DNA of 33,229 bases from Clostridiales bacterium (GTDB taxonomy: Bacteria > Bacillota > Clostridia > Christensenellales > Aristaeellaceae): positions 1-33,229 of the forward strand of contig SVGK01000004.1 of the NCBI GenBank assembly GCA_015056395.1, written 5' to 3'. Shown here in pieces: positions 10,030-32,456 of this stretch. Positions within the stretch are counted from its first letter, which is position 1; every line of letters starts with the position of its first letter. The position numbers and the translations under genes were made by a program. The notes under the pieces are model-generated. The model was not told the DNA's origin, did not search any database, and saw only the letters and a list, made by a program, of their open reading frames with translations.

Positions 10030-10056
10030 GGACGCCATTAATGGCGTCCCTACGGG
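10030..10056 (+). repeat. CTACGG-tagged palindrome, copy 1
   Basis: A perfect 20-bp palindrome (GGACGCCATTAATGGCGTCC, 10030-10049) followed by the CTACGG tag that marks this repeat family. Orientation plus (tag on the right). Confidence 0.8.
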
Positions 10057-10261: not shown

Positions 10262-10504
10262 CGACCGGCCGCCATCCTTGACGAACCTCCTCCTGTCTGC
10301 TTGTAAGGGTTCACGGCGACGGGTGAGAGGTTGGAAACGGGACCTTCTCCCGCCGCCGTGGACTTAAGTTTAGCAGACAGGAGGAGAACCCTCAAGGACG
10401 CTTCGCGCCGCGCCTGCGGCGCGGTGGCTGGGACAGTGCGTGATCCAATGGGTCACGTCAGCTCGGGAATCAAGGTTGGAAACAGTGGGTAACTTGAGGT
10501 CACG
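10262..10504 (+). repeat. Structured element, copy A (putative structured RNA or hairpin element)
   Basis: A 243-bp sequence with clear similarity, in reverse orientation, to 32129-32364. Its outer stem is a perfect 15-bp pair (10287-10301 with 10372-10386). Inside is a second stem (10312-10323 with 10349-10360, 11 of 12 pairs). Two smaller hairpins follow: 7 bp with a 4-nt loop (10405-10411 with 10416-10422) and 7 bp with an AAT loop (10440-10446 with 10450-10456). Copy B keeps all four stems with different bases in several pairs. No coding frame is conserved between the copies. It could be a non-coding RNA or a non-autonomous mobile hairpin; no Rfam family is recognised from memory. Confidence 0.75.
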
Positions 10505-10536: not shown

Positions 10537-10643
10537 GGTCGAGGTCTGTGCGCAACGATACCGTGGGATGAGCCGTTTGTGATCCATCTGTCACACTGTT
10601 TGCTGACAATCACCGATCGTTTTCACACATCCGCTGAACGGGC

Positions 10644-10669
10644 GGACGCCATGAATGGCGTCCCTACGG
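10644..10669 (+). repeat. CTACGG-tagged palindrome, copy 3
   Basis: GGACGCCATGAATGGCGTCC (10644-10663) plus CTACGG. It is nearly identical to copy 1 with one asymmetric central base, and its core is identical to the copy at 29129. Confidence 0.8.
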
Positions 10670-10756: not shown

Positions 10757-10847
10757 TCAACTGTTAACTGTTAATTGTTAATTGTTAACTGCTCTCCGTC
10801 AACTGTCCAACTCAAACTCCTAACTCCTAACTCCTAACTCCTAACTC
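10757..10847. repeat. Degenerate heptanucleotide array A (13 units)
   Basis: Ninety-one bases form exactly 13 consecutive 7-mers in one unbroken register. Units change along the array from the ttaactg/ttaattg type to the ctaactc type, passing through dissimilar units such as ctctccg, yet the 7-nt phase never slips. It ends 2 nt before the ribosome binding site of dprA. Confidence 0.8.
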
Positions 10848-17018: not shown

Positions 17019-17044
17019 GGGCGCCATGGATGGCGCCCCTACGG
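17019..17044 (+). repeat. CTACGG-tagged palindrome, copy 4 (GGGCGCC core)
   Basis: GGGCGCCATGGATGGCGCCC (17019-17038) followed by CTACGG. Relative to copy 1 the third base of the left arm is G instead of A and the matching base of the right arm is C instead of T, so pairing is kept. Confidence 0.8.
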
Positions 17045-17132: not shown

Positions 17133-17216
17133 CGCACTCCTAACTCCTAACTCCTAACTCCTAACTCCTAACTCCTCATTCCTAACTCCTCATTCCTCCC
17201 TCCTCATTCCTCATTC
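17133..17216. repeat. Degenerate heptanucleotide array B (12 units)
   Basis: Eighty-four bases read as 12 consecutive 7-mers, mostly ctaactc and ctcattc with single variants such as ctccctc, all in one register. It begins 2 nt after the tag of palindrome copy 5 and ends 34 nt before the alaS promoter. Confidence 0.8.
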
Positions 17217-20185: not shown

Positions 20186-20944
20186 CTACCCCTTATACAC
20201 CATCAGCACCGTCTCCACCGCCGCGTCCTGCAGCCGCCCGACCAGCGCCGCCGGGAACACCACGCTCGCCTCGCCGTTCGCGCCCGCCGCGCACTTGACG
20301 GCGATCCATTCGACGCCGTCGCCCCCGATCAGCCCGACCAGCCCCATGGGCCTGTCCTCGGCCGTCAGCGCCGGCACGTAGGGAAAGCCCGCCGTGACGT
20401 CCGCCGAAGGCTCCGCGCCCGTCAGCTCGAAGTCGTAGTACTGCTGCGGCTGATACGCATTGAGATCCATGTTCGGCTGCGCCATGCCCGAGGACATCCA
20501 GTTGAGCAGCGCCTCGTCCGTGAGCATGTCCGCGGCTGAATAGTTAAGTACGCCGTCGATCACTTCGGTCCCCTTTGCGGTCAGGGGCACCAGCCTGATC
20601 GCGCCCGACGTGCTGGTCGGCGCGTCCGCGCCGCCGCTCGCGCGCTGCGCCGCGTCGGTATCCTTTGAAAGATACTCGGTAAGTATGTAGCCCACGCGGT
20701 TCTCGTAGTGGCAATAGGTGAACCGCCCGAGATCCTCGCAGTACTCCACGACCGCGCCCAGCGGCACCTCCATCGCGCGCTCGGACGAGGTGTCCGGCGA
20801 CACGCGCAGCGATACCCATTCGTCGCAGTTGACGACCTTGCAGGCGTAGCGCTCCTTGGGCAGCGTGCCGCCCTCGCCCAGCGCCGTCCACGCGGCCAGT
20901 GTGAGGAGCATGCAGGTCAACAGGAATATCTTCATTCGCTTCAT
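20186..20944 (-). CDS. Secreted protein with bacterial SH3 domain
   Basis: A 252-residue protein. Residues 1-24 are a signal peptide (MKRMKIFLLTCMLLTLAAWTALGEGG). Residues about 33-95 form a bacterial SH3 domain (CKVVNCDEWVSLRVSPDTSSERAMEVPLGAVVEYC with FTYCHYENRVGYILTEYL), usually a wall or peptide-binding module. The rest (about 110-252) is not recognised; it contains an acidic, aromatic-rich stretch (LNAYQPQQYYDFELTGAEPS) and ends in a beta-rich segment. The frame is open to 21124, but the start is set at ATG 20944: it begins the signal peptide, has GGAG 9 nt upstream, and follows a promoter at 21001-21029. A second ATG 9 nt further in is also possible. The gene is divergent from the LRR protein gene, with which it may share an envelope role. 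Confidence 0.8.
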   Translation of the reverse strand: MKRMKIFLLTCMLLTLAAWTALGEGGTLPKERYACKVVNCDEWVSLRVSPDTSSERAMEVPLGAVVEYCEDLGRFTYCHYENRVGYILTEYLSKDTDAAQRASGGADAPTSTSGAIRLVPLTAKGTEVIDGVLNYSAADMLTDEALLNWMSSGMAQPNMDLNAYQPQQYYDFELTGAEPSADVTAGFPYVPALTAEDRPMGLVGLIGGDGVEWIAVKCAAGANGEASVVFPAALVGRLQDAAVETVLMVYKG

Positions 20945-21000
20945 ATCATCGCGCTCCGTTTCATGTTCGTGCTGCCGTGCGTGCATGGCAGGCTGAGGAT

Positions 21001-21029
21001 AGTATACATGAAACGGGCGGGTTTTGCAA
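21001..21029 (-). promoter_or_regulatory. Promoter of the SH3-domain protein gene
   Basis: On the minus strand TTGCAA (21024-21029) and TATACT (21001-21006) are separated by 17 nt, 57 nt before the start codon. Confidence 0.6.
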
Positions 21030-21071
21030 GGGGTCCGCGGCCTCACGATGCGCGGCCCGCACTTTTGCCTG

Positions 21072-21100
21072 TTGCCAAATTTTTGTGGCAGGAGTATAAT
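21072..21100 (+). promoter_or_regulatory. Promoter of the LRR protein gene
   Basis: TTGCCA (21072-21077), a 17-nt spacer and TATAAT (21095-21100), 27 nt before the ATG. It is back-to-back with the promoter at 21001-21029, with 42 bp between the two -35 boxes. Confidence 0.75.
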
Positions 21101-21127
21101 ATCCATCGAAAGAAGAGGTGGCATATC

Positions 21128-23461
21128 ATGCGAAGACAGGCACTGCTTTTTGTACTGCTCGGCTTCATGGCGCTGTGCTTTATGACGGCGCAGGCCAGCC
21201 AGTCCGGTAAGTGCGGCGACAACGTGACCTGGAAGCTCTCCAGTTCCGGCGCGCTGACGATATCGGGCAAGGGCGCCATGTACGACTATGACGAAGCCTC
21301 GCCGTTCCCCGCGGAGAGCGTCAAGACCGCCTCGATCGGCAGCGGCATCACGTCGATCGGCGACGGCGCGTTCTACGACTGCGAGCTGATGACGAAGGTC
21401 ACGATCCCCTCGTCCGTCACACGCATCGGCGAGGCGGCGTTCGGGCAGTGCTACTCTCTCTCGTCCGTGACGCTGCCCTCGGGTCTCAAAACCCTGGGCG
21501 ACGGCGCGTTCTTCGCGTGCGCGATCGAATCGCTCGCGGTGCCCTCAGGGATCACAATCGTGCCGAACTCACTCTGCCTGGGATGCGCCCTGCTTGCGGA
21601 CATCAAGCTTCCGAACGGGCTGCTGCAGATCGGCGAAGGCGCATTCGGGGGCTGTGAGGCGCTCACGCAGATAGAGATACCGTCCACTGTTACCGTGATC
21701 GGCGACGCCGCCTTCGCGCTGTCGCATCTGCAAAGCGTCACGATACCCGCCTCCGCCACACAGCTGGGCGCAGGAGTGTTCATGCAATGCCCGCTGCTCC
21801 AGAGCGTGACGATCAGGGGCGAGGTCACGGAGATCGGCGAATCGATGTTCTCCGAGTGCGAAAGCCTGACGACGGTCACGCTGCCGGACAGCGTGCGCTT
21901 CATAGGCGACAGGGCGTTCTACCAGTGCTCCTCGTTAAAAGGTTTCTATTATCCCTCTTCTCTTATGAACATCGGCGAGAATGCCTTCAGCGGCTGCGCT
22001 GCGTTGACGAACGGCACGCTGCCGGACGGCGTGACCGCCGTCGGGGCCAACGCCTTCGCGGGGTGTGATTCCATCACGTCCATGACGCTTCCCGCGAGGC
22101 TCCAGGACATACCCGTATCCATGTTTCCCCTCTCGGTAAAATCCGTGATCGTGAAGTCCGGCAACGCTAATTATTACACCACTGACGGCGTGCTGTTCAG
22201 GCGCGAGGGCAAGGTGCTGGCGTACTGCCCCAAGGGCCGCACGGGCAAGTACACGGTCCCCTCGGGCACCACATCCATAGGCTCCTCGGCGTTCGCGTGG
22301 TCCGGCATTTCTGAGATCATCATACCCGACAGCGTGACGTACATCGGCGGGAGCGCGTTCTCAAGCTGTGGCTCGCTGACGCGCGTGACGATGGGCAACG
22401 GCGTCGAGGAAATGGGGAGAGCCGTGTTCGAGGAATGTGTCAGTCTGACCAACGTCAGCCTCTCCGGGAAGCTCACCGAGATACCGGAGTATACATTTTC
22501 GATATGTGAAAACCTCGCGCGCATCGACATCCCTGAAGGCATAAAGTCCATAGGCAAAAATGCCTTCTTTGACTGCTATGCCCTTGAGGAGCTGGCGCTG
22601 CCGGACGGCTTTGAGATGCTGGCCCCGGACGCCATGGGCGACTGCTACGCGGTCACGCGCGTGACGATCCCCGCAAGCGCCACGAGCATCGCGGCAAACA
22701 GCTTCGATGCCGCATCCAAACTGTCGACGTTCGAGGTCGATCCTGCAAGCGAAAACTACCGGTGCGTGGACGGCGCGCTGATCGATCTGCGCACGGGCAC
22801 GGTGATCGACACCGCGCGCGGCTATGCCGGCACGTGTGCGCTGCCGCGCGGCGTGAAGGCCATAGGGGCCAACGCCTTCATGTTCTCGAAGGTGAGCGGG
22901 GTCGTGCTGCCGGAGGGGCTTGAGACAATCGGCGAAAGCGCGTTCAACCAATGCAACGCGCTGAAGAGCATCAACATACCCCCCACCGTCACGGAGATCG
23001 GTAAGCTGGCCTTCTATCCCTGCGGCCTTGAGGAGATCGAGGTGCCTGAGACCGTCGCGACGGTCGGCTGGCAGTTCGTCGCCGACGGGCTGCCCATACG
23101 CTGCGTCAAGGATTCCGCCGCACACAAATACGCATTGGAGCATGGTAACCCGGTCGTGCTGATCGAGCCCCGCCTCACGTTCACGTTCTTCCTGCCGGAG
23201 GGGCTGGAGCAGGTCGAGGCCGAGTCGTTCATGAACATCGCCGCCGAGAGCATACGTCTGCCGGACGGCGTGACCGCCATAGGCGCGAGGGCGTTCGCGA
23301 ACTGCGTGAAGCTCGAGCGCGTGTACATCCCTCAAAGCGTGACCACGATCAGTTCGGACGCGTTCGAAGGCGCGCCGGATGGCCTCGTGATCGCGGGCGT
23401 CAAGGGCTCGAAGGCCGAAGCTTTCGCAAAGCAGAAGGGCTACACGTTCAAGGCGCAGTGA
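21128..23461 (+). CDS. BspA-like secreted leucine-rich-repeat (LRR_5) protein
   Basis: A 777-residue protein. Residues 1-23 are a signal peptide (MRRQALLFVLLGFMALCFMTAQA). The segment CGDNVTWKLSSSGALTISGKGAMYDYD is the capping region that precedes LRR_5 repeats in BspA-like proteins. A long series of repeats of about 23 residues follows, each with a core of the type ITxIGDGAFYDCxxLxxVTIPSSV. Two interruptions (about 335-365 and 530-575; for example VKSGNANYYTTDGVLFRREGKVLAYCPKG) are the usual non-repeat modules of this family. No LPXTG, SLH or membrane anchor is visible at the C-terminus (KAEAFAKQKGYTFKAQ). The protein is likely secreted or loosely wall-bound and may take part in adhesion. 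AGAGGTGG precedes the ATG at 21128. Its last 14 bp overlap the end of the convergent XRE regulator gene. Confidence 0.92.
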   Translation: MRRQALLFVLLGFMALCFMTAQASQSGKCGDNVTWKLSSSGALTISGKGAMYDYDEASPFPAESVKTASIGSGITSIGDGAFYDCELMTKVTIPSSVTRIGEAAFGQCYSLSSVTLPSGLKTLGDGAFFACAIESLAVPSGITIVPNSLCLGCALLADIKLPNGLLQIGEGAFGGCEALTQIEIPSTVTVIGDAAFALSHLQSVTIPASATQLGAGVFMQCPLLQSVTIRGEVTEIGESMFSECESLTTVTLPDSVRFIGDRAFYQCSSLKGFYYPSSLMNIGENAFSGCAALTNGTLPDGVTAVGANAFAGCDSITSMTLPARLQDIPVSMFPLSVKSVIVKSGNANYYTTDGVLFRREGKVLAYCPKGRTGKYTVPSGTTSIGSSAFAWSGISEIIIPDSVTYIGGSAFSSCGSLTRVTMGNGVEEMGRAVFEECVSLTNVSLSGKLTEIPEYTFSICENLARIDIPEGIKSIGKNAFFDCYALEELALPDGFEMLAPDAMGDCYAVTRVTIPASATSIAANSFDAASKLSTFEVDPASENYRCVDGALIDLRTGTVIDTARGYAGTCALPRGVKAIGANAFMFSKVSGVVLPEGLETIGESAFNQCNALKSINIPPTVTEIGKLAFYPCGLEEIEVPETVATVGWQFVADGLPIRCVKDSAAHKYALEHGNPVVLIEPRLTFTFFLPEGLEQVEAESFMNIAAESIRLPDGVTAIGARAFANCVKLERVYIPQSVTTISSDAFEGAPDGLVIAGVKGSKAEAFAKQKGYTFKAQ

Positions 23462-29128: not shown

Positions 29129-29154
29129 GGACGCCATGAATGGCGTCCCTACGG
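29129..29154 (+). repeat. CTACGG-tagged palindrome, copy 6
   Basis: GGACGCCATGAATGGCGTCC (29129-29148) followed by CTACGG; identical to copy 3, 18.5 kb away. Confidence 0.8.
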
Positions 29155-30474: not shown

Positions 30475-31863
30475 ATGCGCTCCAGAAGAAATGACATCGA
30501 CATGCTCCACGGCCCGCTCGCGGGCAAGCTGTTCCTGTTCGCGCTGCCGCTGGCGGCCTCCGCGGTGCTGCAGCAGCTGTTCAACGCCGCCGACCTGGCC
30601 GTCGTGGGCAACTTCGCCACGCCCCAGGCCATGGCCGCGGTGGGCAGCAACGGCTCCGTCATATCGCTGCTGGTCAGCCTGTTCGTGGGCATGTCCGTGG
30701 GCGCGAACGTGGTCATCGCCAACCTGATCGGCGCGGGGCGGCGCGAGGACATCAACGACGCCGTGCACACCGTGGTCGCGCTGGCGCTGGCCTCCGGCGC
30801 GTTCCTGATGGCGGCGGGCATGCTGCTCGCGCCCAGGATACTCAGGATGATGGGCGCGCCCGAAGAGGTCATGTCGCTGGCGGTCGTATATCTGCGCATA
30901 TACTTCGTCGGCATGCCCGCCATAATGCTCTACAACTTCGGCTCGGCGGTGCTGCGCAGCCACGGCGATTCGCGCCGCCCGTTCATGAGCCTGACGCTGG
31001 CGGGCATAGTGAACGTGCTGCTCAACCTGCTCTTCGTGATCGTGTTCAGGCTGCACGTGATCGGCGTGGGGCTTGCGACGGTGCTTTCCAACTACCTGGC
31101 CGCGGGCCTGACGGTGGCGTTCTTGATGAACGAGCAGCCCGAATACCGCCTGCGCCCGGCAAAGATACGCTTCAAACGGGAATACCTGGTCAGCGTGCTG
31201 AAGATCGGCGTGCCGGCGGGCATACAGGGCATGGTGTTCTCGCTCAGCAACGTGGTGATACAGACGGCGGTCAACAGCTTCGGCGCGAACTGCATCGCCG
31301 GCAACACGGCGGGGCAGAACTTCGAATTCATCTCCTACTGCATCATAAACGCCTTCGGGCAGACGGTGGTCACGTTCGTGAGCCAGAACTACGGCGCGGG
31401 CGACGCCGCGCGCTGCAAAAAGGCGCTGCGCGAGGGCGCGCTGATCTGCTTAGGCATCGACATCGCGGTGCTCGCGGCGCTCTACGCGGGGCGCTACACC
31501 GCGATACGGCTGTTCACGACCGACCCGGCCATCATCGAATTCGCGATGGTGCGCATACGCTACGCCATGGCGTTCCACTTCCTGTGCATCACCTATGAGC
31601 TGCCCGCGGGCGCGCTGCGCGGGCTGAACTGGAGCGTCGTGCCGGCGCTGATCTCCATGCTGGGCACGTGCGCGTTCAGGCTCGTATACGTGCTGGTATA
31701 CCTCCCGACGCACCGCAGCATGGAGACGCTGATCAGCGTGTACCCGATATCGTGGGTGCTGACGGGCATCGTGATGATCACGGCGTACTTCATCGTGAGC
31801 AGGAAGGCGTTTGGGGAGTTAGGAGTGAGGAGTGAGGAACGAGGAGTCGGGGAAGGCGATTGA
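30475..31863 (+). CDS. MATE family multidrug/sodium antiporter
   Basis: A 462-residue membrane protein with about 12 transmembrane helices in two homologous halves, the MATE (MatE) layout. Typical features are the opening GPLAGKLFLFALPLAASAVLQQLFNAADLAVVGNFA, SVGANVVIANLIGAG, and the second-half counterpart KIGVPAGIQGMVFSLSNVVIQTAVNSFGANCIAGNTAGQNFEFI. It should export cationic compounds or metabolites in exchange for Na+ or H+. AGGAGG lies 5 nt before the ATG. The end is odd: after the last helix and KAF, the final codons (GELGVRSEERGVGEGD) are translated from heptad array F, so the native C-terminus seems to have been replaced by repeat DNA. Transport should not be affected, as these residues lie beyond the last helix. 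Confidence 0.93.
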   Translation: MRSRRNDIDMLHGPLAGKLFLFALPLAASAVLQQLFNAADLAVVGNFATPQAMAAVGSNGSVISLLVSLFVGMSVGANVVIANLIGAGRREDINDAVHTVVALALASGAFLMAAGMLLAPRILRMMGAPEEVMSLAVVYLRIYFVGMPAIMLYNFGSAVLRSHGDSRRPFMSLTLAGIVNVLLNLLFVIVFRLHVIGVGLATVLSNYLAAGLTVAFLMNEQPEYRLRPAKIRFKREYLVSVLKIGVPAGIQGMVFSLSNVVIQTAVNSFGANCIAGNTAGQNFEFISYCIINAFGQTVVTFVSQNYGAGDAARCKKALREGALICLGIDIAVLAALYAGRYTAIRLFTTDPAIIEFAMVRIRYAMAFHFLCITYELPAGALRGLNWSVVPALISMLGTCAFRLVYVLVYLPTHRSMETLISVYPISWVLTGIVMITAYFIVSRKAFGELGVRSEERGVGEGD

Positions 31864-32128: not shown

Positions 32129-32364
32129 CGTGACCCCTGATCACCTTTTCGTTCCCGAGCCGCGTGACCCCTTTCACATCGGCTCACGCACAGTCGCAGC
32201 CACCGCGCTTTGCGCAGCGCCGCAGGCGTCCTTGACGGTTCTCCTTCGGTCTGCTACACTTTTCTCACGGCGAGGGCGGCGGATGTCCTGACCACCTCTC
32301 CGCCCTTCACCGTGCCTTCAAGACAGCAGACCGGAGGAGGTTCGTCAAGGATGGCAGACGGTCG
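32129..32364 (-). repeat. Structured element, copy B (putative structured RNA or hairpin element)
   Basis: A 236-bp element homologous, on the minus strand, to 10262-10504. Shared landmarks in element orientation are CGACCG, CCATCCTTGACGAACC, the 15-bp outer stem (32325-32339 with 32241-32255, one mismatch), the inner stem (32303-32314 with about 32265-32276), a 5-bp hairpin (32205-32209 with 32216-32220), GCGCGGTGGCTG, a GTGA/TCAC hairpin (32164-32187) and GCTCGGGAA. In the outer stem a T-A pair of copy A is G-C here, and in the inner stem a C-G pair is T-G. It is bracketed by the 35-bp direct repeats. Confidence 0.75.
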
Positions 32365-32416: not shown

Positions 32417-32456
32417 GTCGAACGAACATCCCGTAGGGACGCCATTCATGGCGTCC
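32417..32456 (-). repeat. 35-bp direct repeat, right copy, with complete CTACGG-tagged palindrome (copy 7)
   Basis: Direct repeat 32417-32451 overlaps a complete palindrome GGACGCCATTCATGGCGTCC (32437-32456) that carries CCGTAG on its left, i.e. reverse orientation. Confidence 0.8.

Follow-up and report, generated by a model that had tools for sequence, protein, structure and literature searches.

We analysed positions 1 to 33,229 of contig SVGK01000004.1 of a Clostridiales bacterium (assembly GCA_015056395.1), a stretch of 33,229 nucleotides hereafter called the window, in which a first-pass annotation had reported a repeated element with two copies, A and B. The repeat was borne out and lies far above chance. 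Copy A occupies 10262-10504 on the plus strand and copy B about 32136-32363 on the minus strand; the two are 74% identical, and blastn against the source genome, a 2.82-Mb metagenome-assembled genome of 80% completeness in which the window is contig C92, returned ~46 full or partial copies, roughly 31 of them A-like and 15 B-like. The element annotated at 10262-10504 is real, but its conserved part stops near 10483, at the second copy of a loop sequence. Copies A and B represent two repeat families that differ outside a common core running from about CTCGACCGGCCGCCATCCTTGACG to GCTCGGGGATCAAGG. This core is a folded unit of ~200-220 bp, which we call cassette X; it spans 10262-10483 in copy A (covariance-model match 10269-10475; E-value 2e-57 with model R2) and 32136-32363 in copy B.

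The stems that had been proposed are present. On the plus strand of copy A, stem P2 pairs 10275-10283 with 10390-10398, P3 pairs 10287-10301 with 10372-10386 and P4 pairs 10312-10323 with 10349-10360; they are followed by hairpin P5 (10405-10430), which ends in the conserved block GGTGGCTG, and by the conserved 3' block GCTCGGGAATCAA (10461-10473). The pair-preserving changes between the copies were confirmed as well (T-A in A and G-C in B within P3; C-G and T-G within P4). A covariance-model search, which the annotation had suggested, recovered X homologues whose stems covary strongly. An alignment of 10 lineages showed that 90% of cells pair and that both sides have changed in 19 of 33 pairs, 14 of the 15 pairs of P3 among them, with a covariation score of 0.463 compared with 0.126 ± 0.020 for shuffles and below 0.1 for every slid control. 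This alignment was fitted to model R2 and somewhat favours the structure; the fitting is not enough to account for the covariation, given the slid controls and the near-complete turnover of the P3 sequence between lineages with pairing kept. Selection on an RNA or a folded single-stranded DNA, the annotation's interpretation, is thus supported by pairing kept in about ten divergent lineages. Its caveat that a transposon end might explain the similarity holds for the likeness of A to B, which are transposon copies, but not for the covariation, which persists across unrelated hosts. X covaries as a structured RNA would, yet lacks a preference for G-U over A-C: the mismatches in the hand-aligned stems, read on the cassette strand, were A-C in 37 cases and G-T in 17, and distinct mismatch events in folds made without wobble pairs were A-C in 15 and G-U in 8, the counts being small. 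Since a cassette-strand RNA would be expected to favour G-U, these counts are in better accord with a cruciform or with single-stranded DNA that folds than with an RNA.

The strand opposite the cassette carries a promoter pattern of the sigma70 type, TTGAC[A/G]-N17-TAnnnT, at a homologous place in about 22 of 24 copies. The -35 box is of the TTGA type and the spacer is 17 bp long in nearly all copies (18 in L123, 16 in L150), as in TTGACA-N17-TACAAT (L143), TTGACG-N17-TATAAT (L122) and TTGACG-N17-TACACT (window copy B, 32232-32260, plus strand); the invariant positions of the -10 box are the first, second and last, like those of ordinary -10 boxes. The corresponding boxes of copy A lie on the minus strand: a -35-like TTGAGG at 10390-10395 (TTGACG in many copies) within P2, and a -10-like TAAACT at 10367-10372, unpaired between P3 and P4; the 17-bp spacer is the 3' arm of P3. 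Two copies found after the hypothesis had been formed, L156 and L163, also carry the pattern, slightly weaker in L156 and read from the sequence as TTGACA-N17-TACAAT in L163. When opposite-strand DNA from 13 lineages was folded, five to six of the six -35 positions and 12-17 nt of the spacer were paired, while the -10 box usually had zero to three of its six positions paired. Scores of single copies are modest; the case for a promoter is built on an unchanging position and spacing.

Within the apical loop of P4 is a lineage-specific sequence of 8-16 nt; a second copy in the same direction lies immediately 3' of the block GGCTC(C)GGGATC(A)A. In copy A AGGTTGGAAAC stands at 10328-10338 and again at 10473-10483 (plus strand); the loop sequence of copy B is AGGTGGTCAGG (32287-32297) and its second copy AGGTGATCAGG (32136-32146), both on the minus strand. 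Each loop matched its own 3' copy best in 12 of 14 lineages, and the summed match score of 137.5 was reached in none of 200,000 permutations (maximum 116.5). Reverse-complement matches were at background level, and the loop sequence did not recur elsewhere in the same locus except in a second X copy in L144. Both copies seen after the pattern had been described repeat their loops: CAGGGGTTACTG exactly over 12 nt in L163 (0 of 20,000 shuffles) and AATATCATC in L156 (119 of 20,000). The two loop-sequence copies have drifted apart in some A copies. The idea that the second copy is the flank of an insertion target was disfavoured, as it is absent from IS256 relatives without X, though those relatives have diverged.

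Covariance models, together with a protein search, placed X in at least 12 further Clostridia genomes. Model R1 (162 nt, built from 24 A and B copies) matched G107 and G129 of another genus, each time directly 3' of the stop codon of an IS110-family gene; three X homologues directly follow IS110-family transposase genes. The 3' block CTCGGGATCAAGG, which lies outside R1, is also kept in G107 and so confirms the R1 homologues independently. Model R2 added four genomes of the same family (G196, G037, G328, G116), one of another family of the order (G459) and others from further families of the class (G676, G876, G883 with five copies and, weakly, G853), and G018 and G014 came from the protein search. 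Weak matches of either model (L079, L080, L127-L133) were treated as chance, and a pattern scan of GTDB gave real matches only in the already known G107 contigs, the remainder being chance. No match was found in members of the window's genus other than the source genome.

The transposase or recombinase genes that X flanks on their 3' side are unrelated to one another; other copies lie in intergenic repeats. Its host genes belong by Pfam to IS110 (PF01548, PF02371), IS256 (PF00872), IS3 (rve) and ISL3 (PF01610) and include a serine recombinase, which in L123 adjoins a type IV secretion system coupling protein, the sole X copy beside conjugation genes. Orientation relative to the host gene varies, being the same for IS110, IS256 and one IS3 gene and reversed for ISL3, the serine recombinase and another IS3 gene; antisense control of the host transposase was therefore rejected as a general role. 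An inverton was also rejected, since all aligned copies have the same orientation with no flipped segment. In IS256 relatives that lack X (L153-L155, L166), the stop codon and the inverted end are separated by about 30 nt, a gap that X occupies in L122 and L156; given that the empty site is visible, X is an optional cargo. The right ends of the relatives without X carry an outward TTGACA-type box near the tip, from which hybrid promoters probably arise. The copies of G883 are intergenic and lie within other repeats. There, L144, L147 and L149 hold X copies amid short palindromic repeats (GGTGGCTG...TATATGCCCA units), and paired inverted X copies in L144 and L147 flank ~0.8-1 kb of these palindromes as a large foldback-like repeat.

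The carriers in the source genome are the two repeat families, whose ends are unrelated to each other. Most A copies of X are embedded in a ~480-bp repeat with its own inverted ends (GGTGTAAGTCAGAGAATGGGGTGACGGA... and ...TCCGTCACCCTATTTTCTGACTTACACC) and target duplications of ~8 bp, for example AAAACCATA, ATGATTTG, ATGCGAAA and AAAATGAA, best seen at C242, C177, C26 and C134; family B starts with GTATAGTGTAATGACATCCTTTACA and ends in ...GTAAACCATGTTGCTTCATAC. With terminal inverted repeats, target-site duplications and no coding sequence, family A is a miniature inverted-repeat transposable element (MITE), a term that describes the carriers of the window copies and not cassette X; an autonomous parent of family A was not found. 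The 5' repeat end of window copy A has decayed, and all that survives is a remnant of the 3' inverted end (GTCACACTGTTTGCTGACAATCACC) at 10590-10614 on the plus strand. About 10 of the ~46 source-genome copies contain an optional hairpin-rich module of ~90 nt, found at the same site in both families, where it separates the 3' arm of P3 from that of P2 (G000 contigs C20, C228, C281, C324, C145, C109, C341 and C40). One family A copy (L023, G000:C50:989-1242) lacks P3 and P4, as though the hairpin had been deleted. A palindromic repeat, GGACGCCATGAATGGCGTCCCTACGG, occurs five times in the window, where none is expected (10030-10055, 10644-10669, 17019-17044 and 29129-29154 on the plus strand, 32431-32456 on the minus strand), and also beside several other X copies. 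The window further contains intergenic arrays of the 7-bp unit AACTCCT (10815-10847, 17142-17216, 31815-31850) and encodes a long BspA-type leucine-rich repeat protein (20708-23461).

We suggest, with a probability of about 40%, that X is a hairpin promoter, predicted and not demonstrated to work like the Frpo and single-strand origin (sso) promoters. X is carried as cargo by insertion sequences, by MITE-like repeats and by at least one integrated region of conjugative type, and one of its strands would fold into a long hairpin in which the -35 box and the 17-bp spacer form an intrastrand duplex (P2-P3) and the mostly unpaired -10 box resembles an already opened promoter, with P4 next to it. 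Host RNA polymerase may recognise this hairpin, either as folded single-stranded DNA or as an extruded cruciform, and transcribe P4 with its loop into a short RNA, in much the same way as at Frpo and sso promoters. Such an RNA could re-anneal at the second loop copy, for example as a relocated primer, which is conceivable because the strand that templates the loop RNA would, at that site, also be complementary to it. We favour a hairpin promoter because a duplex -35 box and spacer with an open -10 box is what a single-strand promoter needs; this arrangement explains the retention by P3 of its length and pairing and not its sequence, and by P2 of TTGAC in both arms. Several observations speak against it. 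The -10 box is partly paired in L123 (4 of 6) and L146 (5 of 6), family A often has a weak -35 box (TTGAGG), single-copy promoter scores only modestly exceed those of shuffles, and the ~90-nt module separates the -35 box from the spacer and would break a linear promoter in the long copies. Moreover, searches of plasmid, phage and viral collections, the very places to look for single-strand promoters, gave no X. A scan of the F-plasmid leading region for the X layout gave no clear equivalent and so provides no yardstick.

Each of the other explanations accounts for part of these data. X may be a structured non-coding RNA of the cassette strand, such as the 3' end of a transposase mRNA, acting in trans or in cis, and its nested, covarying structure, its conserved unpaired blocks such as GGTGGCTG and its position immediately 3' of the transposase stop codon, reading in the gene's direction, in IS110, IS256 and one IS3 element (with slight overlap in IS3) agree with this. 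We nevertheless hold such an RNA to be doubtful: the cassette strand has no conserved promoter, the stems lack the G-U preference, the orientation is reversed next to the ISL3, serine recombinase and second IS3 genes, no Rfam family matches, and the -35/N17/-10 pattern of the other strand is left unaccounted for. Between RNA and DNA, the evidence leans to DNA through the opposite-strand promoter and the absence of a G-U excess. The same promoter evidence would suit an ordinary double-stranded promoter, outward or antisense, with a transcript starting from P4. The hairpin at its 5' end would yield an antisense or small RNA, and the target of the loop would be the second copy on other transcripts. 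The loops of antisense copy-control RNAs diversify fast, as do those of X. This explanation is unlikely, as P2-P3 pairing is impossible in the transcript and the covariation of P3 is thus unexplained, and the relation to the host gene varies.

A functionless MITE-type palindrome, whose quasi-palindromic arms stay alike through templated repair from one to the other, would be in keeping with the MITE-like copies of the source genome, with their inverted ends and target duplications. Templated repair, however, should erase both the -10 bubble and the GAACC-type internal loop, yet both persist, the latter in most lineages; at least four transposase families unrelated to each other are associated with X, and its loop is duplicated; already weakened by the covariation, loop-repeat and promoter results, this explanation is quite improbable. 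The three homologues directly 3' of IS110-family genes raised the possibility that X is part of an IS110 bridge RNA (seekRNA). This was refuted as a general explanation and we give it hardly any credence: in IS110 relatives without X a different, shared candidate region follows the gene, X accompanies IS256, IS3 and ISL3 as well, and the source genome has no PF02371 match.

Searches with the covariance models of Rfam 15, HEARO and omega RNA families included as the annotation had advised, gave no match to X, and no described family, within a literature limited to open PMC papers, passed all the membership tests made. The closest systems are the Frpo, single-strand initiation (ssi) and RNA-polymerase-dependent sso promoters of rolling-circle plasmids and integrative and conjugative elements, likewise long imperfect hairpins with promoter boxes, whose fold is believed to present a duplex to the host RNA polymerase (PMC11541004, PMC4595007); folded Frpo mimics double-stranded DNA, and RNA polymerase recognises it (PMC11541004). 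X has their layout, a foldback hairpin with -35 and -10 boxes at promoter spacing. It differs in having no sequence match to them, a -10 box placed in a bubble, a duplicated variable loop, an activity that is only predicted, and a location in insertion sequences and MITEs rather than in the searched sets of plasmids, phages and viral contigs. Like MITEs and the pneumococcal BOX element (PMC3049150), the carriers of X are short, non-coding, multi-copy and structured, with an optional middle module, but the X core is common to two MITE families with unrelated ends and to several Clostridia insertion sequence families. X resembles the seekRNA of IS110/IS1111 elements in being non-coding and adjoining an IS110-family gene in G107 and G129; unlike it, X lies as an extra block after the stop codon and ahead of a distinct candidate seekRNA region, and it is also present where IS110 genes are absent. 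6S RNA, whose stem opens into a central bubble, thereby imitating an open promoter and templating a short RNA, shares the bubble-in-stem design, while X seems to be a feature of DNA that has consensus promoter boxes, exists in many copies and is set among mobile elements.

Together, a folded cassette spread across IS110, IS256, IS3, ISL3 and MITEs, with a putative hairpin promoter and a duplicated loop, is described by none of the families tested; its newness rests on failed membership in known families and not on a proven mechanism. If X is a single-strand promoter, such promoters would extend beyond conjugative plasmids and may help transposons in their single-stranded phases. A more speculative and rather improbable extension is that X acts on transposons as a programmable hyperparasite, with a fast-changing address of 8-16 nt in its loop that is matched by the second copy in the cassette. 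This address could direct the RNA from the hairpin promoter in priming, inserting or exchanging cassettes between insertion sequences that are otherwise unrelated. If the loop is such an address, X would amount to a small element, guided by nucleic acid, that spreads on the back of ordinary transposons.
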